Shown: positions 16,566 through 37,623 of the stretch, piece by piece
How the letters are laid out: each line of letters opens with the position of its first letter
Numbering within the stretch: the stretch's first letter is position 1
Assembly (NCBI GenBank): GCA_012838865.1
Contig: DUOK01000270.1
Span: 1 to 38,461, forward strand
DNA: 38,461 nt
Direction: 5' to 3'
Source of the DNA: Bacteroidales bacterium
GTDB taxonomy: Bacteria > Bacteroidota > Bacteroidia > Bacteroidales > Marinilabiliaceae
Position numbers and translations under genes: made by a program
The notes under the pieces: generated by a model
Databases searched by the model: none
What the model was told of the DNA's origin: nothing
What the model saw: only the letters and a program-made list of their open reading frames with translations

Positions 16566-17099
16566 ATGCCTTGGATCGTTGTTACAGGACCTGAGTCCAC
16601 CGGTAAATCAACCTTAAGCGCCCAACTGGCAGAAAGCTACGGGGGAGAAGTGATTCCGGAATACGCCCGCAGTTATGTGGAAAACCTCAGGCGGCCCTAT
16701 ACTTTCAGCGACGTGGAAACAATTGCCCGGCGGCAATTGTTTACAGCCTGTAAACTTAAAAAAGCAGCAAACAGCGCTGCCCACTTGGTTTTTTTTGATA
16801 CCTTTCTGATTCTTACCAAAGTTTGGTTTGAAGAGGTTTACGCATGCTGTCCCCTTTGGCTCGATGCTGCCATAAGGACCAATAAACCCGCTTTGGTACT
16901 TCTGTGTTTGCCCGATTTACCCTGGAAGGCCGACGCAGTAAGAGAGAATGGAACGCGCAGGAGGTATCTGCTGAACCGTTATCAAAGTAATCTGGAGTAC
17001 TACGGTATTCCCTTTCAAAAAATCGCCGGAAAAGGAAGCTTGCGTTTAAAAAGAGCACAAAAGCACGTTAACACCCTAATTGAAAAGTCTTATGAGTAG
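16566..17099 (+). CDS. NadR-type ATPase / ribosylnicotinamide kinase-like protein
   Basis: This 177-aa P-loop kinase resembles the C-terminal kinase domain of NadR. Walker A GPESTGKST is at residues 8-16, followed by PEYARSYVE, which is typical of this family. The N-terminal repressor and adenylyltransferase domains of full NadR are absent. It should phosphorylate nicotinamide riboside imported by PnuC, trapping it as NMN for NAD synthesis. The ATG at 16566 is chosen; the ORF track begins at a TTG inside pnuC. Its last 8 nt overlap cysE (ATGAGTAG), indicating translational coupling. Confidence 0.87.
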   Translation: MPWIVVTGPESTGKSTLSAQLAESYGGEVIPEYARSYVENLRRPYTFSDVETIARRQLFTACKLKKAANSAAHLVFFDTFLILTKVWFEEVYACCPLWLDAAIRTNKPALVLLCLPDLPWKADAVRENGTRRRYLLNRYQSNLEYYGIPFQKIAGKGSLRLKRAQKHVNTLIEKSYE

Positions 17100-18018
17100 A
17101 TTGGAATACCCCCGGGCCCTGAAAAAGACCATTGAAGCCCTGTCTGAAGAGAAGTCCTATCATTCGGTTTGCCATCGGCATTATCCCGACCAGCCCATGC
17201 CTTCGGTAGCGGTCATGAAAGAAATTGTTGATCTGGTGCGTGAAATTATTTTCCCCGGCTATTTCGGCAATTCACCTACCCGGCCGGGCAGCGTGCAGTA
17301 TTACATTGGGGTAAATGTTGAACTTCTGTACGAAAAAATGCGTCAGCAAGTCTTTGCCGGCTTATGTTTCGGATGCCAGGATGCCGATAAGTTTGAAGTC
17401 TCGGATGCCAAACAACAGGCTGCACGGGTAACCGTTCGCTTTATAGAACAACTGCCCGAATTGCGCTACTTATTATCTACCGATGTGGAAGCCGCCTTTT
17501 TGGGCGATCCTGCGGCCCAAAGCAGTGCCGAAGTCATTTTTTGCTACCCCGCCATCCGGGCCATTACCAATTACCGCATTGCCCATGCCTTGCTTGAACT
17601 TAAGGTTCCGCTTATCCCCCGCATCATATCCGAGATGGCCCATTCCGAAACCGGCATCGACATTCATCCGCGGGCCAAAATAGGCAAGAGTTTTACCATT
17701 GACCATGGAACGGGCGTGGTTATTGGTGCCACCTCCATAATTGGCGATAATGTAAAGATTTATCAGGGGGTAACCCTGGGCGCCAAAAGCTTCCCGCTTG
17801 ATGAGAAAGGGAATCCCATCAAGGGCATTGCACGTCATCCCATTGTTGAGGATAATGTCATCATTTATGCCCAGGCCACCATCCTTGGGAGGATTACCAT
17901 CGGCGCCAATTCGGTCATTGGGGGTAACGTTTGGATCACCTCCGATGTGGCACCCAACAGCAAAGTCCTTCAAGAGCGTTTTCGTTTTGGCGGTTTTATG
18001 GGAGGCGAAGGCATCTGA
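17092..18018 (+). CDS. cysE: Serine O-acetyltransferase
   Basis: This 308-aa enzyme transfers acetyl from acetyl-CoA to serine, the first step of cysteine synthesis. The C-terminal half is a left-handed beta-helix of hexapeptide repeats. TGIDIHP and TIDHGTG supply the catalytic Asp and His, and GVTLGAKS forms part of the acetyl-CoA site. The long N-terminal helical domain is of the EpsC-like type. Its ATG at 17092 overlaps the stop of the kinase gene; the TTG at 17080 in the ORF track is less likely. Serine from the serA/serC route would be the substrate. Confidence 0.93.
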   Translation: MSRLEYPRALKKTIEALSEEKSYHSVCHRHYPDQPMPSVAVMKEIVDLVREIIFPGYFGNSPTRPGSVQYYIGVNVELLYEKMRQQVFAGLCFGCQDADKFEVSDAKQQAARVTVRFIEQLPELRYLLSTDVEAAFLGDPAAQSSAEVIFCYPAIRAITNYRIAHALLELKVPLIPRIISEMAHSETGIDIHPRAKIGKSFTIDHGTGVVIGATSIIGDNVKIYQGVTLGAKSFPLDEKGNPIKGIARHPIVEDNVIIYAQATILGRITIGANSVIGGNVWITSDVAPNSKVLQERFRFGGFMGGEGI

Positions 18019-26438: not shown

Positions 26439-26512
26439 ACTTTTGGCTTTTGGTCGGAGCAAAACTAATACAATCTGTGCGCATTAGAAAGTTTCCCTGG
26501 CTTTGATCCCTT

Positions 26513-26520
26513 CAAATATA
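26513..26520 (-). promoter_or_regulatory. -7 box for Hpt-STAS pair
   Basis: The minus strand reads TATATTTG, an exact TAnnTTTG match, 75 nt upstream of the Hpt ATG. This would give a leader of about 68 nt. No -33 TTG was found. Confidence 0.4.
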
Positions 26521-26610
26521 GCAAAAAACGTAAAAATTGTTAATGCATTGTGTAAATTTACCGGCAGAACAACATTTTTTAGTGTATTACTTAACAAAAC
26601 TTCCTTCGTT

Positions 26611-27702
26611 ATGCAAAAAACGCCGCTTTACGATAAACATGTGGCCCTTGGTGCCAAAATGGTTCCCTTTGCCGATTTCGCGATGCCTGTTGAATACAGC
26701 GGGATACAGCAAGAGCATATGGCTGTACGTGAGGCGGCCGGAATTTTTGATGTGTCGCACATGGGCGAGTTTTGGGTAAAGGGTCCCCGGGCACTTGCCC
26801 TCCTGCAAAAAGTTTGCAGCACCGATGTGGCCGGTCTCCCCATTGGCAAAGCCCAGTATTGTTATTTTCCCAACGGGAGGGGAGGGGTAGTCGACGATTT
26901 ACTGGTTTATGCCTACGAAGCCCAAAAGTATCTCCTGGTGGTTAATGCTGGAAACATTCAAAAGGACTGGGATTGGTTGCAGACCAACAACAGCATGGGG
27001 GCCGAACTCGAAAACGCCAGCAAGCACATGGCGCTTCTGGCTATACAGGGCCCCCGCGCCCAAAGCATATTGCAAGCCCTTACTTCGGTAAATTTAAACG
27101 ATTTGCCTGCCTTTTCCTTTACCACCGGTCGTGTGGGTGCCTGGGAGCAAGTCATTGTGTCGCACACAGGTTACACCGGGGCAGGCGGTTATGAGCTCTA
27201 TGTTGCTGCTGAACAGGCTCCGGGGCTTTGGGACCTGCTCTTGCAAGAGGGCGCGGAAAAAGGACTGATTCCTTGCGGATTGGGCGCCCGCGATAGCCTG
27301 CGCCTGGAGATGGGCTTTTGTCTGTACGGCAAGGACATTGATGAGCAGACTTCCCCCATTGCTGCGGGTCTGGGTTGGGTAACCCATTTGACCGATGGAA
27401 GGGAATTCATTGACCGGGAGATTCTGGAGCGACAAATGAAGGAGGGCGTTGCGGAGCGACTCAAAGGGATTGTACTTCTGGAGCGGGGCATTCCCCGTAG
27501 TGGCTACCAGCTGGTTAACGAAGCGGGAGAGGAAGTGGGCCGCGTAACCTCCGGCAGTCAGTCCCCCGTTTTAAAACAAGGCATTGGCCTGGCCTATGTC
27601 ACCAAACCGTATTGGAAACCCGGCAGTCGTCTTTTTGTGCGCATTCGTAACAAAGACATCGCCGCAGAAATTCGAAAGCCTCCTTTTATTGAGGGTTTTT
27701 AG
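26611..27702 (+). CDS. gcvT: Glycine cleavage system T protein (aminomethyltransferase)
   Basis: This 363-aa enzyme moves the methylene carbon from the aminomethyl-lipoyl H protein to tetrahydrofolate and releases ammonia. MQKTPLYDKHVALGAKMVPF is the usual N-terminus, so I use the ATG at 26611 and drop 36 codons from the ORF track. VSHMGEF, the catalytic-site region RDSLRLEMG and the C-terminal barrel ending in RKPPFIEGF agree with the family. gcvH and gcvP are not in the window. It stands just before serC and links serine/glycine with one-carbon supply. No exact -7 box was found upstream. Confidence 0.95.
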   Translation: MQKTPLYDKHVALGAKMVPFADFAMPVEYSGIQQEHMAVREAAGIFDVSHMGEFWVKGPRALALLQKVCSTDVAGLPIGKAQYCYFPNGRGGVVDDLLVYAYEAQKYLLVVNAGNIQKDWDWLQTNNSMGAELENASKHMALLAIQGPRAQSILQALTSVNLNDLPAFSFTTGRVGAWEQVIVSHTGYTGAGGYELYVAAEQAPGLWDLLLQEGAEKGLIPCGLGARDSLRLEMGFCLYGKDIDEQTSPIAAGLGWVTHLTDGREFIDREILERQMKEGVAERLKGIVLLERGIPRSGYQLVNEAGEEVGRVTSGSQSPVLKQGIGLAYVTKPYWKPGSRLFVRIRNKDIAAEIRKPPFIEGF

Positions 27703-27774
27703 TTTATTTAACTTTTTACTCTTGTTTAACGGTTATTTATGTCATTTTGTAATCACAGATATCTATTTTTCTTT

Positions 27775-27782
27775 TAATTTTG
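27775..27782 (+). promoter_or_regulatory. -7 box for serC
   Basis: TAATTTTG matches TAnnTTTG exactly, about 70 nt before the serC ATG. A TTTTG lies 25 nt upstream, slightly farther than usual for -33. Confidence 0.5.
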
Positions 27783-27852
27783 TGCCGCAAAACAAACACT
27801 GGTATACGGATTTTCCATATCAGGACGACAACCTTAAACATTTTTTACTCTC

Positions 27853-28923
27853 ATGAAGAAGCACAATTTCTCTGCCGGGCCATCTATCCTTCCCGATTTT
27901 ACCATCAAGAACACCGCTGAGGCTGTACTTAATTTTGCCGGTACGGGCTTGTCCGTAATGGAAGTCTCGCATCGCGATAAGGAGTTTATCGCAGTTATGG
28001 ACCAGGCTACGGCTCTTTTTAAGGAGCTGCTGGACATTCCCTCGGGCTATCAGGTTGTCTTTTTGGGTGGTGGCGCCAGTATACATTTCTGCATGATTCC
28101 CTACAATCTGCTGAACAAGAAGGCCGCCTATCTGAATACCGGTACCTGGGCCTCCAAAGCCATAAAGGAAGCCAGGTTTTTTGGTGAGGTGGTTGAAGTG
28201 GCCTCCTCAAAAGACGAGAATTACTGTTACATTCCCAAGGGTTTTGAGGTACCTGCCGATGCCGACTATCTGCACATTACCACCAACAATACCATTTTTG
28301 GTACTGAAATCCGTAAGGACCTGGATGTAAACATTCCTTTGGTGGCCGATATGTCGTCCGATATTTTCTCTCGTCCCGTTGATGTTTCAAAGTACGGCAT
28401 CATATACGGTGGCGCACAGAAGAACCTGGCGCCTTCTGGTGTAGGCTTTGCCGTGATTAAGGAAGAGCTTTTGGGAAAAGTAGAGCGTCCCATCCCCACC
28501 ATGTTGAATTACAAAACCCATATTGACAACGGTTCGATGTTCAACACCCCGCCGGTATTGCCTGTATTCTCGGCCCTGCAGACCCTCATTTGGTTGAAGG
28601 AACAAGGCGGTTTGGGTGAAATGGAGAAGCGCAACATTCGTAAAGCCACCATGCTTTACAACGAAATTGAGCGCAACAAGCTCTTTAAAACCACCGTGAA
28701 GAACGAAGAAGACCGTTCCATTATGAATGTATGTTTTGTAATGAATGAGGAGTATAAGGACTTGGAAACCGAGTTCCGTGAGTTTTCCGCTTCTAAAGGC
28801 ATGGTAGGCATCAAGGGGCACCGCTCCGTGGGTGGATTCAGAGCATCCATTTACAATGCCATGCCCGAACAAAGTGTTAAAGCCCTCATTGATGTGATGC
28901 AAGAGTTTGAGAAAAAGCATTAA
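27853..28923 (+). CDS. serC: Phosphoserine aminotransferase
   Basis: This 356-aa PLP enzyme converts 3-phosphohydroxypyruvate and glutamate to O-phosphoserine, the second step of serine synthesis. The start [11 protein letters not shown] is typical. The PLP lysine lies in [12 protein letters not shown], and [15 protein letters not shown] near the end binds substrate phosphate. The length is normal. It is the first gene of a serC, serA, DUF1015, yggS-type cluster. A separate promoter for serA lies across its last codons. Confidence 0.97.
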
Positions 28924-28936
28924 AGATGTATCTTTG
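28906..28936 (+). promoter_or_regulatory. Internal promoter for serA
   Basis: TTTG (28906-28909), a 19-nt spacer and TATCTTTG (28929-28936) form a full Bacteroidota promoter overlapping the serC stop. The predicted start near 28943 is immediately followed by the 28945-28983 hairpin, giving an 86-nt leader before serA. Confidence 0.65.
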
Positions 28937-28944
28937 AAGAATTA

Positions 28945-28989
28945 AAAAGGGAGAGCGTGGGGCAGATTCACAACCTCCCTTTTCTTTTT
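28945..28989 (+). terminator. Terminator-like hairpin between serC and serA (possible attenuator)
   Basis: AAAAGGGAG (28945-28953) pairs with CTCCCTTTT (28975-28983) across a 21-nt loop, and C plus five T residues follow. It can end the serC transcript. Because a promoter lies just upstream, it would also be the first element of any serA leader RNA. Confidence 0.6.
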
Positions 28990-29028
28990 GCACATCGTTT
29001 TTTATAGCAAACACCAAATTATACTGTG

Positions 29029-29952
29029 ATGAAGAAAGTTTTGATAGCCACCGAGAAGCCCTTTTCTCAGGTTGCTGTGGATGAAATCAGAATTATTGTT
29101 GAGGAAGCCGGTTACGAATTGGCTTTGCTTGAGAAATACAAGAGTGAGGGCGAGCTGTTGGAGGCCGTTGCCGATGCAGACGCACTCATTGTACGCTCCG
29201 ATAAAGTGACTGCTAAAGTGCTGGATGCTGCAAAAAATCTGAAAATCGTGGTTCGTGCCGGAGCCGGTTACGACAACCTTGATTTGGAGGCCTGCAACGC
29301 CAAAGACATCGTGGCTATGAATACCCCCGGTCAAAACGCCAACGCTGTGGCCGAGCTGGTATTTGGCATGATGATTTATGGTATCCGAAAGCAATTCAGT
29401 GGTGCTTCGGGCAGCGAACTGCGCGGCAAATCCCTGGGTATTCATGCTTATGGCAACGTGGGTTATTATGTAGGAAAAATTGCCGAAGGTTTTGGCATGA
29501 AGGTTTATGCCTACGATCCCTACGTGGGTTCTGACCGCATGCAGTCGCATGGTGTAGAGCCTATGAACAGTGTAGAAGAACTCTACCGTACCTGCGAGTT
29601 TGTTTCGCTGCACATTCCGGCCAACGACATCACCCGCAATTCCATCAACAAATCACTTCTTTCCATGATGCCCCAGGGCGCCGTTCTCATTAATACCGCC
29701 CGCAAGGAAGTCATTCACGAAGCAGAGTTGGTTGAATTGATGGAAGAACGTGAGGACTTTATGTATTTGAGCGATATCGCCCCTTCCAACGCTGCAGCAT
29801 TTCAGGAAAAATTTCCCGGTCGCTTCTTTTTTACCCCCAAGAAAATGGGTGCCCAGACCGAAGAGGCCAACATCAACGCCGGTATGGCAGCTGCCCGGCA
29901 GATTGTGAGCTACTTTTTGACCGGTGAAGAAACCCATCGGGTTAATCGCTAG
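29029..29952 (+). CDS. serA: D-3-phosphoglycerate dehydrogenase, short lysine-type
   Basis: This 307-aa NAD-dependent enzyme oxidises 3-phosphoglycerate, the first step of serine synthesis. It has the two D-hydroxyacid dehydrogenase domains but no C-terminal ACT domain, so it lacks the usual serine feedback site. The glycine-rich loop reads GIHAYGNVGYYVG, with the first Gly of GxGxxG replaced by Ala. Where classical enzymes have the catalytic His (TPHxGA), this one has TPKKMGA (Lys271/Lys272), like the lysine-type enzymes known from Bacteroides and Entamoeba. The NTARKEVI region has the active-site Arg. I prefer the ATG at 29029 over the GTG at 29026. Confidence 0.92.
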   Translation: MKKVLIATEKPFSQVAVDEIRIIVEEAGYELALLEKYKSEGELLEAVADADALIVRSDKVTAKVLDAAKNLKIVVRAGAGYDNLDLEACNAKDIVAMNTPGQNANAVAELVFGMMIYGIRKQFSGASGSELRGKSLGIHAYGNVGYYVGKIAEGFGMKVYAYDPYVGSDRMQSHGVEPMNSVEELYRTCEFVSLHIPANDITRNSINKSLLSMMPQGAVLINTARKEVIHEAELVELMEEREDFMYLSDIAPSNAAAFQEKFPGRFFFTPKKMGAQTEEANINAGMAAARQIVSYFLTGEETHRVNR

Positions 29953-29960
29953 ATTTACCG

Positions 29961-29988
29961 GGGCGGATGTGGACCTCCACATCCGCCC
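29961..29988. other. Strong hairpin between serA and DUF1015 gene
   Basis: GGGCGGATGTGGA (29961-29973) pairs perfectly with 29976-29988, a 13-bp GC-rich stem. The T-run after it is poor (TTCCTTA). It may be a partial terminator or an mRNA 3'-end stabiliser that lowers expression of the downstream gene relative to serA. Confidence 0.6.
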
Positions 29989-30023
29989 TTCCTTATCCAT
30001 TCATCCCCCAAAAACCTGAGCCT

Positions 30024-31271
30024 ATGGCTGTTGTAAAACCTTTCAAGGGGCTTCGTCCCCCCGAGCATTTGGCATCTGTACTATCGTGTTTGCCTTACGA
30101 CGTAATGAACAGTGAAGAAGCCGCCCAAATGGCTGCCGGAAAACCTGAGTCACTGCTCCACATTACGCGGGCTGAAATCGACTGCCCTCCGGGCACCGAT
30201 CTGCATTCTGAAAAAGTTTATCAACAGTCCCTCGCTAATTTTAAAGCCTTTAAAGAAAAGGGTTGGTTGCAGAAGGATGAGCAAGCCTGTTTTTATGTGT
30301 ATGCCCAGACCATGGATGGTCGCACACAATACGGATTGGTGGCACGTGCTGCCTGTGAAGATTACTTCAGCGGAGTAATAAAGAAACATGAGCTTACGCG
30401 ACCCGATAAGGAGGAGGACCGCATGGTGCACATTCGCACCAACAATGCCAACCTTGAGCCGGTTTTCTTCAGCTATAAAGCCGTACCCGAAATAGATGAG
30501 CTGGTGGCCACTGTGGTTCAGGGCAAAGCCGAATACGATTTTACCAGCGAGGAAGGTTTTCGACACCAGTTTTGGGTAGTGTGGGACCCTGCAGTAAATC
30601 TTCAGCTCGAAAAATTGTTTGCCGAGAAAGTACCCTGCACCTATGTGGCCGACGGGCATCACCGCACGGCAGCAGCCGCCCGTATTGGCGCAGAACGTAA
30701 GGCTGCCAATCCCACCCACACCGGAGAAGAGGCCTACAATTATTTTATGGCCGTTCACTTTCCCGATCAGCAATTGGCCATTATCGATTACAATCGGCTG
30801 ATTAAAGACCTCAACGAACTGAGTGAGTCCGATTTCATCATTGCCCTGGGTCGCAGTTTTGAAGTCTACCCGATGGGAAATACGCCCTTTAAACCCAGAG
30901 CCTTACACGAGTTTGGCCTGTATCTGGGTCACAAATGGTACCGCCTGGTAGCCCGAAAGGGAAGCTACAACGATGCCGACCCCATTGGCGCCCTGGATGT
31001 TACCATCTTGTCGAAGCAGGTCCTCGAACGTATTCTGGATATCCAGGATCAGCGCACCTCGCAACGCATCGATTTTGTGGGAGGCATACGTGGACTCGAA
31101 GCCTTGCAGCAAAGAGTTGATTCCGGAGAAATGAAAGCCGCCTTTGCCCTTTACCCTGTATCTATGGAGCAGCTGATTCGCATTGCCGATACCGGCAATA
31201 TTATGCCGCCCAAAACCACCTGGTTCGAACCCAAGCTGCGTTCGGGTTTGGTTATACATGAATTGGAGTAA
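30024..31271 (+). CDS. DUF1015 family protein (ParB/SerK-like motif, possible serine-related enzyme)
   Basis: This 415-aa soluble protein of the DUF1015 family often sits next to serA. The N-terminal VVKPFKGLRPP and CLPYDVM segments are family marks. TYVADGHHRTAAA at residues 206-218 contains DGHHR (210-214), which resembles the ParB/sulfiredoxin-fold motif used for ATP-phosphate handling by free-serine kinases such as SerK and SbnI. This is a likeness in a short motif only. I use the ATG at 30024, since the upstream 19 codons run through the hairpin. serB is not in the window, so a role in handling serine or phosphoserine is a reasonable guess, not shown. Confidence 0.85.
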   Translation: MAVVKPFKGLRPPEHLASVLSCLPYDVMNSEEAAQMAAGKPESLLHITRAEIDCPPGTDLHSEKVYQQSLANFKAFKEKGWLQKDEQACFYVYAQTMDGRTQYGLVARAACEDYFSGVIKKHELTRPDKEEDRMVHIRTNNANLEPVFFSYKAVPEIDELVATVVQGKAEYDFTSEEGFRHQFWVVWDPAVNLQLEKLFAEKVPCTYVADGHHRTAAAARIGAERKAANPTHTGEEAYNYFMAVHFPDQQLAIIDYNRLIKDLNELSESDFIIALGRSFEVYPMGNTPFKPRALHEFGLYLGHKWYRLVARKGSYNDADPIGALDVTILSKQVLERILDIQDQRTSQRIDFVGGIRGLEALQQRVDSGEMKAAFALYPVSMEQLIRIADTGNIMPPKTTWFEPKLRSGLVIHELE

Positions 31272-31285
31272 AGAAAAATTAAATT

Positions 31286-31960
31286 ATGATGTTGAAGGAG
31301 CGTTTAGCAGCCCTTAAAAAGAGAATTCCCCCGCAAACCTGTTTGATTGCCGTAAGTAAAACCCATCCTGCTTCCAGCATTCTGGAAGCCTACGCATGCG
31401 GTCAGCGTGTGTATGGAGAGAATAAAGTTCAGGAGCTTTGTGCCAAACAGGAAGAACTGCCCGGGGACATCGAGTGGCACATGATTGGTCACCTCCAGAG
31501 CAACAAGGTAAAGTACATCGCTCCCTTTGTGGCCCTGATACATGGTGTTGATTCGCTTAAGTTGTTGAAAACCATAGATAAAGAGGGTCGTAAGAACAAG
31601 CGCATTATTCCTTGTCTGTTGCAGGTGCACATTGCCGAAGAGAGTAGCAAGTTTGGATTTTCACCCGAAGAACTGCGTGAAATGTTGGCAGCCGGTGCAT
31701 GGCAGGAGCTGGAATTTGTAGAAGTAAGGGGCCTTATGGGCATGGCCACCTTCACCGAGGATAAAGCACAGGTTCAGCGCGAATTTCACAGCCTTAAAGT
31801 GCTGTTTGATGAGGTGAAGGAGCGGTATTTTGCCGACAGCAGCGATTTTAAGGAACTCAGTATGGGGATGTCCGATGATTTTGAACTGGCCATTGAAGCG
31901 GGAAGTACGATGGTGCGCGTAGGCAGCGCTCTTTTTGGGGCGCGGGATTACAATTTGTAA
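31286..31960 (+). CDS. YggS family pyridoxal phosphate-binding protein
   Basis: This 224-aa PLP-binding protein of the YggS/PROSC (PLPBP) family controls vitamin B6 and amino-acid balance and has no known catalytic activity. The PLP lysine lies in LIAVSKTHP. YGENKVQE, WHMIGHLQSNK, MGMSDDFELAIEAGSTMVRVG and the final GARDY are conserved. It lies 14 nt after DUF1015 and so probably belongs to the serine operon, whose SerC is itself PLP-dependent. Two adjacent ATGs could be the start. Confidence 0.94.
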   Translation: MMLKERLAALKKRIPPQTCLIAVSKTHPASSILEAYACGQRVYGENKVQELCAKQEELPGDIEWHMIGHLQSNKVKYIAPFVALIHGVDSLKLLKTIDKEGRKNKRIIPCLLQVHIAEESSKFGFSPEELREMLAAGAWQELEFVEVRGLMGMATFTEDKAQVQREFHSLKVLFDEVKERYFADSSDFKELSMGMSDDFELAIEAGSTMVRVGSALFGARDYNL

Positions 31961-31964
31961 TTTG

Positions 31965-31972
31965 TATATTTG
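31965..31972 (+). promoter_or_regulatory. -7 box for the DHODH-like gene
   Basis: TATATTTG matches TAnnTTTG exactly, 38 nt before the ATG at 32011. A TTTTTG is present but 27 nt upstream, too far for a standard -33. Confidence 0.5.
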
Positions 31973-32010
31973 TCTGAGCTTATAGTGACACCACATATAA
32001 AACCTAGGAT

Positions 32011-32997
32011 ATGACAAAGATGGAAACCACTTACCTGGGGTTAAAGTTAAAGAACCCTATTGTAGTTGGGAGTTCGGGACTTACCAACAGCGTAGAGAAG
32101 ATCAGAAAGGTACAGCAGGCCGGAGCCGGTGCCGTTGTTTTAAAGTCCCTGTTCGAAGAACAAATCAGTCACGATACCGAGCGCGCCATATATCAGGGTT
32201 CCGGGATGGACTATCCGGAAGCTTTGGATTACATCAAAGGCTATTCGCGCAGCAATTCGGTCGGCGAATACCTGCAATTGCTGAAGGACGCCAAAGCCGC
32301 AGTGGATATTCCGGTTATTGCCAGCATCAACTGTTACTCAGGGGAGGAGTGGATCGACTTTGCCCGTCAGGTGCAGGAAGCCGGTGCCGATGCCCTCGAG
32401 CTCAACGTTTTTGCGGTTAATACCGACAAAAACAGTGAAGCCGCTGCCTATGAAGAACTGTATCTGAAAGTAGCCCGGGAAGTCAGCAAAGTAGTAAGCA
32501 TACCCGTCGTTATCAAGCTGGGCCAGTATTTCAGCAACCTGGTAGCGGTGGTCAACAAGCTTTCGGTCAGCGGCGCCAGGGGCGTGACGTTGTTTAACCG
32601 TTACTACGAGCCCGATATCGACATCAACAGCCTCAGCTTCACCTCCTCCGAAGTTTTCAGTCAGCCCGCTGATTTGCGTCAGTCGCTGCGCTGGGTAGCT
32701 ATTGTCAGCGACAAGGTGCACAATATTGAAATTGCCGCCTCCACCGGTGTACATGATGGCGATGCGGTAATTAAGCAAATACTGGCCGGTGCCCAGGTGG
32801 TGCAAGTCTGTTCAGCCGTTTATAAGCAGGGGCCCGAAGTCATCACGCAGATGCTCCAAAAGCTGGAAAGCTGGATGCAGGAAAAAGAGTTTGAAAAAGT
32901 GGCGCAATTCCGGGGCTTGATGAGTTACGGTAAGATTAAAAATCCAGCTGTATACGAAAGAGCGCAGTTCATGCGCTATTTCTCAAAATTTGAATAA
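32011..32997 (+). CDS. Dihydroorotate dehydrogenase-like flavoprotein, catalytic Cys missing
   Basis: This 328-aa TIM-barrel protein resembles class 1 PyrD. KNPIVVGSSGLT, VIASINCYS, ALELN, VVIKLGQY and STGVHDGDAVIKQILAGA keep the FMN-binding and barrel pattern. Where class 1A enzymes have the base in NLSCPN, this reads NVFAVN, so the catalytic Cys is Ala while both Asn residues remain. It is therefore probably not a standard dihydroorotate oxidase, although such 'DHODH-like' proteins are widespread. A second in-frame ATG lies 9 nt downstream. It has its own -7 box and a strong terminator and looks monocistronic. Confidence 0.82.
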   Translation: MTKMETTYLGLKLKNPIVVGSSGLTNSVEKIRKVQQAGAGAVVLKSLFEEQISHDTERAIYQGSGMDYPEALDYIKGYSRSNSVGEYLQLLKDAKAAVDIPVIASINCYSGEEWIDFARQVQEAGADALELNVFAVNTDKNSEAAAYEELYLKVAREVSKVVSIPVVIKLGQYFSNLVAVVNKLSVSGARGVTLFNRYYEPDIDINSLSFTSSEVFSQPADLRQSLRWVAIVSDKVHNIEIAASTGVHDGDAVIKQILAGAQVVQVCSAVYKQGPEVITQMLQKLESWMQEKEFEKVAQFRGLMSYGKIKNPAVYERAQFMRYFSKFE

Positions 32998-33000
32998 GAT

Positions 33001-33026
33001 AAAAACCGGCCCGGGCCGGTTTTTTT
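33001..33026 (+). terminator. Intrinsic terminator after the DHODH-like gene
   Basis: AAAAACCGGCCC is followed directly by GGGCCGGTTTTT, a GC-rich palindrome with a T-run to 33026. The gap up to 33180 also has a weak AAGCATC/GATGCTT hairpin (33047-33070). Confidence 0.88.
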
Positions 33027-33107
33027 ATGCTTACATCCGTCCGTTTAAGCATCTCCACAGGCGGATGCTTGACCTTTAGCACATTTTTCCTCAAATTTGT
33101 ACATCTC

Positions 33108-33140
33108 TTGAAAGAAATTAAAAATATATGGCTACTTTTG
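33108..33140 (+). promoter_or_regulatory. Promoter of lipoprotein/secreted protein pair
   Basis: TTG (33108-33110), a 22-nt spacer and TACTTTTG (33133-33140) fit the Bacteroidota consensus. The lipoprotein ATG lies 40 nt downstream. Confidence 0.6.
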
Positions 33141-33180
33141 ATCTGACTGCCTCAGTCCTAATGCAAACAACCAAATAAAC

Positions 33181-34107
33181 ATGAAACATTTCAGCCTTAA
33201 AGCCACCCTTTTACTTGCGCTTCCCCTTATGCTGTTTTCCTATGGCTGCAGCCAATGTCAGCGTGATGGTTCTGAAAACCAAACAGCTCGTGATATCATG
33301 CAATCGGTAACCATCGATGAGCAATTGTTGGCCGATTTCAATAAATCCAAACTGATATTTTATTCTCTGCCTTCGCCCCTGGAAACGGCTATGCTCATTA
33401 AGCGGGCAGGGGCTGCCTTTAATCCCGACCTGCTCAATGATGTCAATGCCGCATCGCGCTACGACACCAATGCGCGCATGGCCCTTAATTTGGGCATATA
33501 CAGCGCCGACATGAGTTATTCCAGCCTTTTTGATCAAACCCAAAGCACCCTCAACTTTATGGGCGCTGCCCGTCAGTTGGCCGAGCGTTTGGGCGTTATG
33601 GAAGCCATTGATGAAGGCACCATTCGTCGCCTCGAGGAAAATATGAACAACCGGGAGGTGGTCATGGACATTATCTCAGAAACCTTTATGAATTCCAATG
33701 CCTACCTCACCGAGCAGGACCGGCCCGCCATTGCGGTAATGGTATTGCTGGGCGGCTGGGTGGAAGGTCTTTATCTGGCGACCCAGCTCACCGAAGGCGA
33801 ACTGGAAGGCAACCCTGAGCTGATAGACCGCATTGTTTATCAGAAGCTCTCCTTGCTGACCCTGATTAATCTGATGGAGACCCACAGCAGTAACGAAGAT
33901 ATCGCGCGACTCCTGGTGGATATGCAAGCGCTTATGGCTATTTACGATGAAGTGAAAATCATCACCACAGCCGATGTCGAAGCAGAAACCCACCCCGAAG
34001 AAAGAATGACCATTTTACGCTCGCAAGCCGAGACTTTCATCAGTCAGGAAACACTTAATAAGTTGGTCAGCCACGTAGCCGCGCTCAGAGCCGGTTTCGT
34101 TTCCTGA
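33181..34107 (+). CDS. Lipoprotein of unknown function
   Basis: This 308-aa protein begins with a lipoprotein signal: a hydrophobic stretch ending in FSYGC, with Cys23 as the likely lipidated residue. The mature part is almost entirely helical. It has the phrases IFYSLPSPLETAMLIKRAG and LGIYSADMSY and no known catalytic motif. I do not recognise a named family, though it reads like a conserved Bacteroidota surface or periplasmic lipoprotein. The secreted protein gene at 34136 follows 28 nt later, probably in the same transcript. Confidence 0.8.
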   Translation: MKHFSLKATLLLALPLMLFSYGCSQCQRDGSENQTARDIMQSVTIDEQLLADFNKSKLIFYSLPSPLETAMLIKRAGAAFNPDLLNDVNAASRYDTNARMALNLGIYSADMSYSSLFDQTQSTLNFMGAARQLAERLGVMEAIDEGTIRRLEENMNNREVVMDIISETFMNSNAYLTEQDRPAIAVMVLLGGWVEGLYLATQLTEGELEGNPELIDRIVYQKLSLLTLINLMETHSSNEDIARLLVDMQALMAIYDEVKIITTADVEAETHPEERMTILRSQAETFISQETLNKLVSHVAALRAGFVS

Positions 34108-34135
34108 GGGCTGCACCATACCGATGCAAGGAAAA

Positions 34136-34591
34136 ATGCAGAAACTCAGTTCAAAAATTTCTTTACTGCTCCTCCTGCTTATAGCGGGATTTGGCCTGCA
34201 GGCGCAATCGCCTTGCCTCGCTTTTGCCCGCAACATAGCCAAGCCCCTTTTGGGGGATTTTATGCACGATGGCAACTACAACGCCACTTATTTGGAAGAA
34301 GGCGAGAGTGCCGAATTGTACAAGACCTTTTACGAGGGACAATCCTACCGCCTGGTGGTATCGGTGGTGGACCAATTGCCCAATGCCAGGGTGCGACTGC
34401 TCGACAGTAAACGCAATGTGGTATTCGACAACGCCAATTATGAGCTGGCTCCCGTGTGGGATTTTGTGGCAGAGAGTACCGGTACCATGATTGTTCAGAT
34501 CAGGTTGCCAGATCCGGCCGACGACGCCAACATTGTTGGCGGTTGCATCGCCATCCTGTTTGGGGTGGAAAATACGGGGCGCCGTCGTTGA
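34136..34591 (+). CDS. Small secreted protein of unknown function (paralogue of 22370-22801)
   Basis: This 151-aa exported protein has a signal peptide (ISLLLLLLIAGFGLQAQ). The mature part matches the 22370 protein in order and spacing: EEGESAE against TGEEVAE, GQSYRLVV against GNIYRVVL, LLDSKRN against LYDTNRN, APVWDF against SPSWDF, and a closing ILFGV. I start at the ATG at 34136 because AAGGA precedes it; the ATG at 34124 in the ORF track is possible. It ends 22 nt from convergent uvrA, with no visible terminator between them. Confidence 0.75.
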   Translation: MQKLSSKISLLLLLLIAGFGLQAQSPCLAFARNIAKPLLGDFMHDGNYNATYLEEGESAELYKTFYEGQSYRLVVSVVDQLPNARVRLLDSKRNVVFDNANYELAPVWDFVAESTGTMIVQIRLPDPADDANIVGGCIAILFGVENTGRRR

Positions 34592-34613
34592 TCCCCATTT
34601 TTTCCAAAGATTA

Positions 34614-37421
34614 TTATCCTTTTAAATAAGGCGCCAGATACTGACCGGTATAAGAGGCCGGTATATTGAGGAGCGCTTCAGGCGTTCCCTCAAAGACCAA
34701 ATGGCCCCCTTCCTTTCCACCCTCGGGACCCAGGTCGATCAGGTAGTCGGCCGATTTGATTACCTCCATATTGTGTTCCACCACCACCACCGAATGGCCT
34801 TTCTCAATAAGGGCAGAAAAGGCCTTCAGTAGTTTGGCAATATCATGGAAATGGAGCCCTGTGGTTGGTTCATCAAAAATAAACAAGGTAGGCGCTGTTT
34901 TTTCCAGGGCCAGGAAAGAAGCAAGTTTCACCCTTTGACTTTCCCCGCCACTTAAAGTGCTCGAAGCCTGTCCCATTTTCACATAGCCCAGGCCCACCTC
35001 AGCCAGCGGTTGTAAACGATTAACCAGTCGACGCGCAGTAGCCCCCGCGCTTTCGGAGAAAAAGGCAATGGCTTCGTCTATGGTCATATTCAGTATGTCA
35101 CTTACATCACAACCACGATGTTTGATTTCCAACACCTCTTCCTTAAAGCGTTTTCCCTTACAACTTTCGCAGGTCAGCACCAGGTCGGCCATAAATTGCA
35201 TTTCCACCTTTATGCTGCCTTCGCCCTGGCACTCTTCACAACGCCCGCCTTCTACATTGAAGGAAAAGTGCGCCGGTTTCAGGCCCTCTGCCTTCGCCTG
35301 CTTTTCGTCCGACATCAGTTTACGTACCTCGTCCCAGGCCTTTAAGTAGGTCGCCGGATTGGAGCGAGAAGATTTGCCGATGGGATTCTGGTCGATAAAC
35401 TCCACCTCACTTATGGCCGCTACATCGCCCTTCAGCAGGTCAAAATCGCCGGTTTTGTCGGCAAAACCGCCTTTTAATTTCTTGAGTGCAGGGTAGAGGA
35501 TCTTCTTTACCAGGGAGGATTTCCCCGAACCACTGACCCCCGTGATGACCGTCAGTACATTCAGCGGCACGCTAACGTTGATGTTCTTTAAGTTGTTTTC
35601 GCGTGCGCCCATTATTTTAATCGATGCCGAGAAGGTGCGCCTGGAGGTGGGGACCGGCAACTGTCGTGTGCCCGTAAGGTATTGGGTGGTGAGACTCTCA
35701 GGTACCGAGGCCAGGTTGGCAAAAGGACCCTGAAAAACCACTTCGCCACCGTGTTGACCGGCAGCGGGACCAATATCAATCAAATCGTCGCAGGCGCGTA
35801 TGATGTCCTCGTCGTGCTCCACCACCACCACTGTATTGCCAAGTTGTTGCAGACGGCGCAGCACCTCAATAAGCAAATGGGTATCGCGGGAGTGCAGACC
35901 AATGCTTGGCTCATCGAGGATGTAGAGTGAGCCAACCAGACTGCTGCCCAGGGAGGTGGCCAGATTGATGCGTTGGCTTTCTCCCCCCGATAGCGTCGAA
36001 CTCAGGCGGTTGAGGGTCAGGTAACCCAGGCCCACCTTCACCAGAAAATCCAGGCGGTTGTTTATCTCGGTCAACAAGCGGCGCGCCACCTCCAGGTCGT
36101 GCTGTTCGGGCTTAAAAGCTGCAAAAAACTGCTGCAGTTCATCTACCGGCAGAGTCACCAGTTCGTGAATACTGCGGCCGTTTACTTTAACCCAGCCCGC
36201 TTCCTTGCGCAGGCGGGTGCCTCCGCAATCGGGACAGGTCGTTTTTCCCCGGTAACGGGCCAGCATTACCCGGTTCTGTATCTTGTAGAGCTTTTGCTCC
36301 AGGTGCTCAAAAAAAGCATCCAGGCCATGAAAATAGCTGTTGCCCGTCCACAATAAACGACGCTGCTCCGGGGTCAATTCGTAGTAGGGGACATGTACCG
36401 GAAAATCGAACTTGTGCGCATTGCGCACCAGTTGGTTCTTCCATTCGCTCAGCTTATCTCCCCGCCAGCAGGCCACCGCATCCTCGTAAATCGACCGGTT
36501 TTTGTCCGGAATCACCAGATCCTCGTCGATACCAATAACGCTCCCGAAACCTTCGCAACGGGGACAGGCGCCCAGGGGACTGTTGAAAGCAAAAAGATGT
36601 TCATTGGGTTCCTCAAAGGTGATGCCATCGGCCTCAAAGCGGTTGGAGAAGCGCCGGGCCTCCGGCGCCTCTTTGCCGTAGGTCTTTATGATACATTCGC
36701 CCCGGCCTTCGTAAAAAGCCGTCTGTACCGAGTCGGCCATCCTCGAAAGGGTATCGCTGTCCCCGGCATTCACCGCCAGTCGGTCAATCAGCAAAAGAAT
36801 TTCCGCACAGCGGGCCCCCTCAGCATCCAGATAATCTTCTATGGCTACAAATTCATTGTTTTGTTCTATGCGACTGAAGCCCTGCTTGGCCAGCAAGGCC
36901 AAATGCTCCTCGCACGACCTCCCCTCAGGAGGTAATACCGGCGCCAGAATGGCCAGGCGGGTCCCTTCTTCCAGCTGCTCCATGTACCTGACCACATCCA
37001 TAACCTGATGGCGGCGCACTTCCTTACCCGAAACCGGGGAAATGGTGCGGCCAATACGGGCGAAGAGCAATTTTAGATAATCGTATATCTCGGTAGAGGT
37101 GCCCACCGTAGAACGGGGGTTGCGGGTATTTACTTTTTGCTCAATGGCAATGGCCGGGGGGATGCCCTTAATGTAGTCCACTTCCGGTTTGTCGATGCGC
37201 CCTAAAAACTGCCGGGCGTAGGCACTCAGACTCTCCACGTAGCGGCGCTGGCCCTCGGCGTACAAAGTGTCGAAGGCCAGGGAACTTTTGCCCGAGCCCG
37301 AAACCCCGGTGATGACCACGAAGCGGTTGCGTGGAATATCGAGAGAAATGTTTTTAAGGTTGTGTACACGGGCACCCTTTATCAGGATGTGGGTATGTGC
37401 GTTGGCCTTGGTAAGCGTCAT
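34614..37421 (-). CDS. uvrA: UvrABC excinuclease subunit A
   Basis: This 935-aa DNA-damage-recognition ATPase finds helix-distorting lesions and loads UvrB. Two ABC modules are present, each with Walker [10 protein letters not shown], signature LSGGESQR and Walker B (ILDEP and IFDEP). Zinc-binding CxxC pairs occur at CPRC, CPDC, CEEC and [23 protein letters not shown] is diagnostic of UvrA. I start at the ATG at 37421 (MTLTKAN), since the 14 extra codons in the ORF track begin near the -7 box. It appears to be a single-gene transcript. Confidence 0.97.
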
Positions 37422-37451
37422 AGTGCAGGATGCTTCAAATGAAATTTCGTG

Positions 37452-37459
37452 CAAAGATA
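37452..37459 (-). promoter_or_regulatory. -7 box for uvrA
   Basis: The minus strand reads TATCTTTG, an exact TAnnTTTG match, 31 nt before the uvrA ATG. No -33 TTG at good distance and no obvious LexA-type box were seen. The remaining gap to 37623 is A/T-rich and has no exact plus-strand -7 box for the sigma factor gene; a TTGACA at 37535-37540 is noted. Confidence 0.5.
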
Positions 37460-37623
37460 CCAAACAAAATCCATTTGTGAAGGTCCCGGCCTTTACAGCA
37501 AAAAGTATTATTCTGAAGCAAAATTTGTTTTTATTGACATTTTTTTATTTATTCGTGGTCTCAAACATTTAAAACGCCATTGCCTATTGAAACAGTTTTA
37601 CAAGTTATCTATTCAGATTTGTT

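Follow-up and report, generated by a model that had tools for sequence, protein, structure and literature searches.

The gene at 30024..31271 (+) in the window, i.e. the whole analyzed DNA stretch of 38,461 nt, encodes a DUF1015 protein of 415 aa (plus stop) that is predicted here to be a free serine kinase of the SerK/SbnI type. We assign a probability of roughly 0.7 to the reading that its function is phosphoryl transfer between serine and phosphoserine, which would make DUF1015 the bacterial counterpart of SerK and SbnI within the free serine kinases. To our knowledge, such kinases are known just from a few archaea and from SbnI. The assignment draws upon the conserved motifs, a predicted structure and a gene linkage to serC and serA that is repeated in different phyla.

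Family assignment and conserved residues

The Pfam profile PF06245 (DUF1015) matched residues 4–327 of the protein over profile positions 1–325 (E = 1.7e-104, 349.7 bits against a gathering score of 25.8). It was the sole Pfam domain detected in the 415 residues, with no match to ParB, HTH or HAD profiles; NCBIfam gave the protein no name, and both Pfam and NCBIfam still list the family without a function. The family, which we take to be the same as COG4198, was present in 252 of the 297 sampled Bacteroidota genomes, with further matches in Thermotoga maritima and Methanosarcina acetivorans. A virus or phage origin was rejected, the matches in phage and plasmid collections looking like chromosomal contamination or megaplasmids. 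An alternative in-frame ATG is present at 29967; the methionine of MAVVKPFKG (30024) was taken as the start because the relatives begin there and M1 is invariant.

The DGHHR motif was located exactly where the first-pass annotation had put it, at residues 210–214 (30651..30665, +). Residue conservation was followed in a set of 65 sequences consisting of 19 diverse Bacteroidota proteins, 42 closer relatives and the members from Listeria, Enterococcus, one gammaproteobacterium and one clostridium (the latter with 26% identity). Apart from D210, G211, H212, H213 and R214, whose invariance in all 65 relatives across phyla means that the motif is not a chance occurrence, the invariant positions included P24, Y25 and D26; H122, E123 and T125; R133; R258; D325; and, at the C-terminus, K397, T399, F401, P403, K404, L405 and G408. 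The first of these groups belongs to a PYDV motif (residues 24–27; 30093..30104, +) in an N-terminal part that is absent from SerK, while the second falls into the sequence KHELTR (residues 121–126; 30384..30401, +), whose H122-E123 pair resembles PHE30 of SerK. The C-terminal group is contained in MPPKTTWFEPKLRSGL (residues 394–409; 31203..31250, +), where residues 395–399 read PPKTT. In the 19 diverse Bacteroidota proteins (42–59% identity to the window protein) DGHHR, PYDV, H122-E123 and MPPK-x-TWFEPKLR were all invariant.

Predicted fold

The AlphaFold2 model of the window protein, built on 43 sequences, had a pLDDT of 92.2 and a pTM of 0.87. A Foldseek search of this model against the PDB produced exactly nine matches with E ≤ 0.001, six of them SerK (1vk1, 5x0k, 5x0e, 5x0b, 5x0j and 5x0g; E from 2.0e-8 to 4e-7) and three SbnI (5uje, 6nr6 and 5ujd; E from 3e-7 to 4.7e-5), all at a probability of 1.00 and with a TM of 0.56–0.62 on the target length, and the tenth match was at E = 0.018 and a probability of 0.08. 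ParB and sulfiredoxin were absent among the significant PDB matches; therefore, the likeness is specific to the two families of free serine kinases. Judging from the model, the DUF1015 fold almost certainly belongs to the SerK/SbnI group. The first-pass annotation had read DGHHR as a lead to this fold and had named an unrelated predicted fold as the result that would count against it; the model bears the lead out.

The fragment 88–262 (175 residues including HE and DGHHR), folded alone, reached a pLDDT of 90, and had no significant match in the PDB: the SerK chains appeared at E = 0.43 to 0.94, among them 5x0k (E = 0.88, probability 0.75, rmsd 2.9 Å over 117 columns), so that this fragment did not place E123 on E30 of SerK. 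A search of the viral structure library gave no significant match.

The DGHHR motif is also similar to the phosphate motif found throughout the superfamily that includes the ParB-CTPase fold proteins and sulfiredoxin. In one alternative reading, DUF1015 has a ParB-like fold but no catalytic activity, and binds nucleotides to regulate SerA/SerC or to act as their scaffold. Other ParB-like proteins are nucleotide switches, and a ParB fusion with 'DU1015' was among the 50 proteins selected in a PNAS survey of 2025; however, the window protein has neither a Pfam ParB match nor an HTH, its best structural matches are kinases with no significant match to ParB or sulfiredoxin, and the glutamate that is typical of the kinase motif is invariant, all of which makes a regulator very improbable.

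Relation to SerK and SbnI at the sequence level

The reference for these comparisons was the PF0380 sequence of the Pyrococcus SerK, checked against 1vk1, with two residues taken from the PDB alignment. The protein is not a member of the narrow archaeal family: the NCBIfam SerK equivalog NF053625 scored 12.1 bits (cut-off 380), at residues 207–225. A single-sequence phmmer search of the PDB recovered 1vk1 below the threshold (E = 0.2) in two collinear pieces, one being DGHHR and the other a stretch ending in PPKTT against SPKTT of 1vk1; a profile search of the PDB with one of the DUF1015 alignments (A1) returned no SerK chain, so that SerK came from the phmmer search only. With hhalign the same alignment scored 46.8 against SerK (probability 85%) and three other alignments 35.3–36.5 (probability 38–44%). 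The real score of the merged DUF1015 alignment was 35.6, compared to at most 24.4 for 60 column-shuffled SerK profiles and 10.9 for the reversed one. The relation between DUF1015 and SerK is thus real, since the profile scores exceed the shuffled and reversed controls, yet weak by sequence alone, the phmmer match being sub-threshold.

DGHHR was aligned by both phmmer and hhalign with D69–R73 of SerK, and the segment at 394–409 with SerK 219–224, the PKTT of residues 396–399 lying on SerK 220–223 (SPKTT, K221–T223). In the longer profile alignments DGHHR and PKTT of the two proteins were collinear, and HE, DGHHR and PKTT follow each other in the same order in both. The second motif and the conserved HE pair extend what the first-pass annotation had noticed, and they strengthen the SerK/SbnI reading. 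The alignment of HE with PHE30 was not reproduced in the global and low-threshold modes of hhalign, where the low-confidence settings put SerK E30 elsewhere. In the model HE is carried by a loop which is followed by a helix (127–140), and it is from this local secondary structure, the order of the motifs and the invariance that we infer E123 to be the equivalent of E30. Among the SerK entries of the PDB, 5x0b is the wild type, while residue 30 of PHE30, the active-site glutamate, is mutated in 5x0e (PHA) and 5x0j (PHQ), both of which contain phosphoserine and AMP.

SerK is an ADP-dependent enzyme (TK0378 of Thermococcus kodakarensis, 5x0b; PF0380 of Pyrococcus, 1vk1), and its full-length fold resembles the one predicted here. 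In contrast to SerK, the window protein is bacterial and mesophilic, much larger (415 aa against 242 aa, with 12–14% identity), and has about 90 extra N-terminal residues with the invariant PYD as well as a spacing from HE to DGHHR that is longer by about 48 residues. SbnI, the serine kinase of staphyloferrin B synthesis (5uje, 5ujd, 6nr6), is likewise similar in predicted fold, but it acts in a siderophore pathway, is only about 11–12% identical and lacks the serC/serA context. On the evidence of the model, DUF1015 is probably a bacterial variant of a kinase type that is already known, though rare, and is enlarged by the additional N-terminal residues and by a large insertion. A literature search, mostly outside subscription journals, found no paper that assigns serine kinase activity to DUF1015, PF06245 or COG4198, albeit an earlier publication is possible.

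In the mechanism that we infer, free L-serine would be converted to O-phosphoserine by phosphoryl transfer between its hydroxyl and a small donor, which may be ATP, ADP or some other compound. By analogy with SerK, DGHHR and PPKTT would hold the phosphates and the nucleotide, and E123 would activate the serine hydroxyl by deprotonation, as E30 does in SerK. With respect to the donor, a SerK-like archaeal protein in the PNAS 2025 survey bound CTP and not ATP.

Conserved linkage with serC and serA

As stated in the first-pass annotation, the gene follows serC and serA, both of which are located upstream on the same strand: serC (27853..28923, +; Pfam Aminotran_5) encodes the phosphoserine aminotransferase and serA (29026..29952, +; GTG start; Pfam 2-Hacid_dh and 2-Hacid_dh_C) a protein of the D-3-phosphoglycerate dehydrogenase family. 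Upstream of serC lies gcvT for the glycine cleavage T-protein (26503..27702, +; Pfam GCV_T, E = 5.9e-91). DUF1015 was accompanied by serA and/or serC in 84 of the 118 related stretches, in 82 of them in the same direction, and this proportion is a lower bound because many stretches carried just 1.5 kb of flank. The gene orders varied (serC-serA-DUF1015, serA-DUF1015, serC-DUF1015, DUF1015-serC and others); the window serC was 56–75% identical to that of related Bacteroidota loci keeping the order serC-serA-DUF1015, and gcvT-serC-serA-DUF1015 was repeated in eight other loci. Intact serC-serA-DUF1015 operons were also present in two records of Listeria monocytogenes and on megaplasmids of Enterococcus gilvus and E. 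raffinosus, where DUF1015 begins at the last base of serA. A linkage that survives reshuffling and crosses phyla argues for a shared pathway.

A longer arrangement within 26503–37463 of the window, gcvT-serC-serA-DUF1015-yggS-DHOD-two ORFs-uvrA(−), is kept in three other Bacteroidales loci; the two ORFs (33181–34107 and 34124–34591) had no match in Pfam.

In Desulfurococcales, serK clusters with serA and an aminotransferase gene, much as DUF1015 does with serA and serC, and for Thermococcus it was proposed that serine reaches 3-phosphoglycerate by the combined action of SerK, an aminotransferase (SerC) and SerA (PMC5120207). The same three-gene logic, taken by analogy, fits the operon of the window: DUF1015, SerC and SerA would form a chain from serine through phosphoserine and phosphohydroxypyruvate to 3-phosphoglycerate, and may feed the carbon of serine and glycine into central metabolism, as suggested for Thermococcus. 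In a survey of 2007, glycine riboswitches were reported to precede serC and also, within fragments presumed to come from Firmicutes, COG4198 genes (PMC2211319); glycine-induced expression of the latter would fit an assimilation of glycine and serine. Such control was rejected for the organism studied here, with no glycine riboswitch found either in the window region or in the whole genome.

SerK in Thermococcus also has a role in cysteine synthesis through O-phosphoserine sulfhydrylase (PMC5120207), and DUF1015 could correspondingly supply phosphoserine for cysteine. This is quite improbable, given that phosphoserine is already made by SerA and SerC and that the acetylserine route is available through a cysE-like serine acetyltransferase gene of the window (17080..18018, +; TIGR01172, E = 1.4e-49, below the curated cut-off of that family).

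SerB and the direction of the proposed reaction

The first-pass annotation had argued from a missing serB. The gene is indeed absent from the window, but the genome encodes it on another contig (G000:C227:13850-14506, −; ACT-SerB, TIGR00338, E = 8.8e-85, above the cut-off and with an intact frame), so that the argument fails, and the idea that DUF1015 replaces a missing serB here was rejected. SerB, a HAD phosphoserine phosphatase, shares the metabolite pair with the proposed role of DUF1015 and belongs to an unrelated family. Its presence means that DUF1015 is not needed in this organism for finishing serine synthesis, and, because SerB already makes serine, the direction from serine to phosphoserine is the likelier one.

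The same enzyme could work mainly in biosynthesis, dephosphorylating phosphoserine (with AMP, ADP, Pi or water as the acceptor) and replacing SerB wherever it is absent. We consider this rather unlikely: the reverse kinase reaction, starting from phosphoserine, is unfavourable in thermodynamic terms as long as its product is not drained, generic HAD phosphatases could do the job, the genome under study has SerB, and there was no clear complementarity between the two proteins. Among 40 relatives of the same class, a SerB-like protein (canonical, or a long HAD protein at about E = 1e-17 to 1e-29) was found in 18 of 20 DUF1015-negative and 15 of 20 DUF1015-positive genomes, and a strict complementarity of serB and DUF1015 was rejected; serC was present in all 40, in two of them with weak, divergent matches only.

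On the side of SerB replacement stand the five DUF1015-positive class relatives without a strong SerB match and a part of 18 further DUF1015-positive genomes or records, of which five had SerB, eight had serC without SerB and five had neither, MAG incompleteness being a caveat for these counts. The eight were a 2.9-Mb circular Listeria record, Mariniphaga anaerophila and six Bacteroidales MAGs, none with a SerB-family match above the cut-off; in M. anaerophila and the complete Listeria record, the serC-serA-DUF1015 operon was present and no SerB-family protein was found. Moreover, 450 gut genomes of diverse Firmicutes have SerA and SerC and no known phosphoserine phosphatase (PMC9026213), and Clostridium perfringens grows without serine although its SerB candidates are poor (PMC7311316).

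Five nearly complete genomes of class relatives (G057, G258, G053, G007 and G017) had serC and DUF1015, with just weak generic HAD matches for SerB. The 2.9-Mb record NZ_CP030101.1 is evidently chromosomal, although its label calls it a plasmid of Listeria.

If DUF1015 is a serine kinase, as we favor, enzymes of this type would count as one of the most common sorts of amino-acid kinase in gut anaerobes, SerA and SerC together could serve bacteria as a route of serine assimilation, and the serine pathways without SerB in the 450 gut genomes (PMC9026213) would have a concrete candidate. More tentatively, and at slightly less than even odds, DUF1015 may represent a large unrecognized family of amino-acid kinases, with serine as the substrate of the main branch and possibly threonine or homoserine as that of side branches, which gives many bacteria a reversible step between serine and phosphoserine, lets SerA and SerC run from serine to 3-phosphoglycerate and explains at least a part of the missing phosphoserine phosphatase of Firmicutes.

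Side branches and possible substrate range

Two side-branch members were found in other gene contexts. On a plasmid of Monoglobus pectinilyticus (NZ_OY725744.1), a divergent DUF1015 gene whose product is 26% identical (L124:3107-4429) is located directly upstream of the genes for homoserine dehydrogenase, homoserine kinase and aspartate kinase, and this protein possibly represents a subfamily acting on homoserine or threonine. On a plasmid of Candidatus Thiodictyon syntrophicum (NZ_CP020372.1), the DUF1015 gene (L123:5977-7266) is divergent from a cbiA-bluB-cobD group; CobD requires threonine phosphate, which makes a threonine kinase a candidate role for this member. The position of these side branches beside homoserine/threonine genes and cobD means that the substrate may vary. 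They also lend some weight to a reading in which the fold and the kinase activity are as proposed but the protein naturally acts on a different small hydroxy acid (threonine, homoserine), serine being a minor or lineage-specific substrate; this is improbable, since the main branch, the window protein included, is linked to serC and serA and not to threonine or cobalamin genes. The Thiodictyon cbiA-bluB-cobD group is preceded by a cobalamin riboswitch (L123:5513-5768, −).

Four alphaproteobacterial MAGs of about 0.9–1.0 Mb had no serC, serB or cysE match of note. At least in these reduced genomes, lacking serC, DUF1015 therefore does something that does not require SerC. Their DUF1015 proteins were 58–61% identical to that of the window, and the gene looks horizontally acquired.
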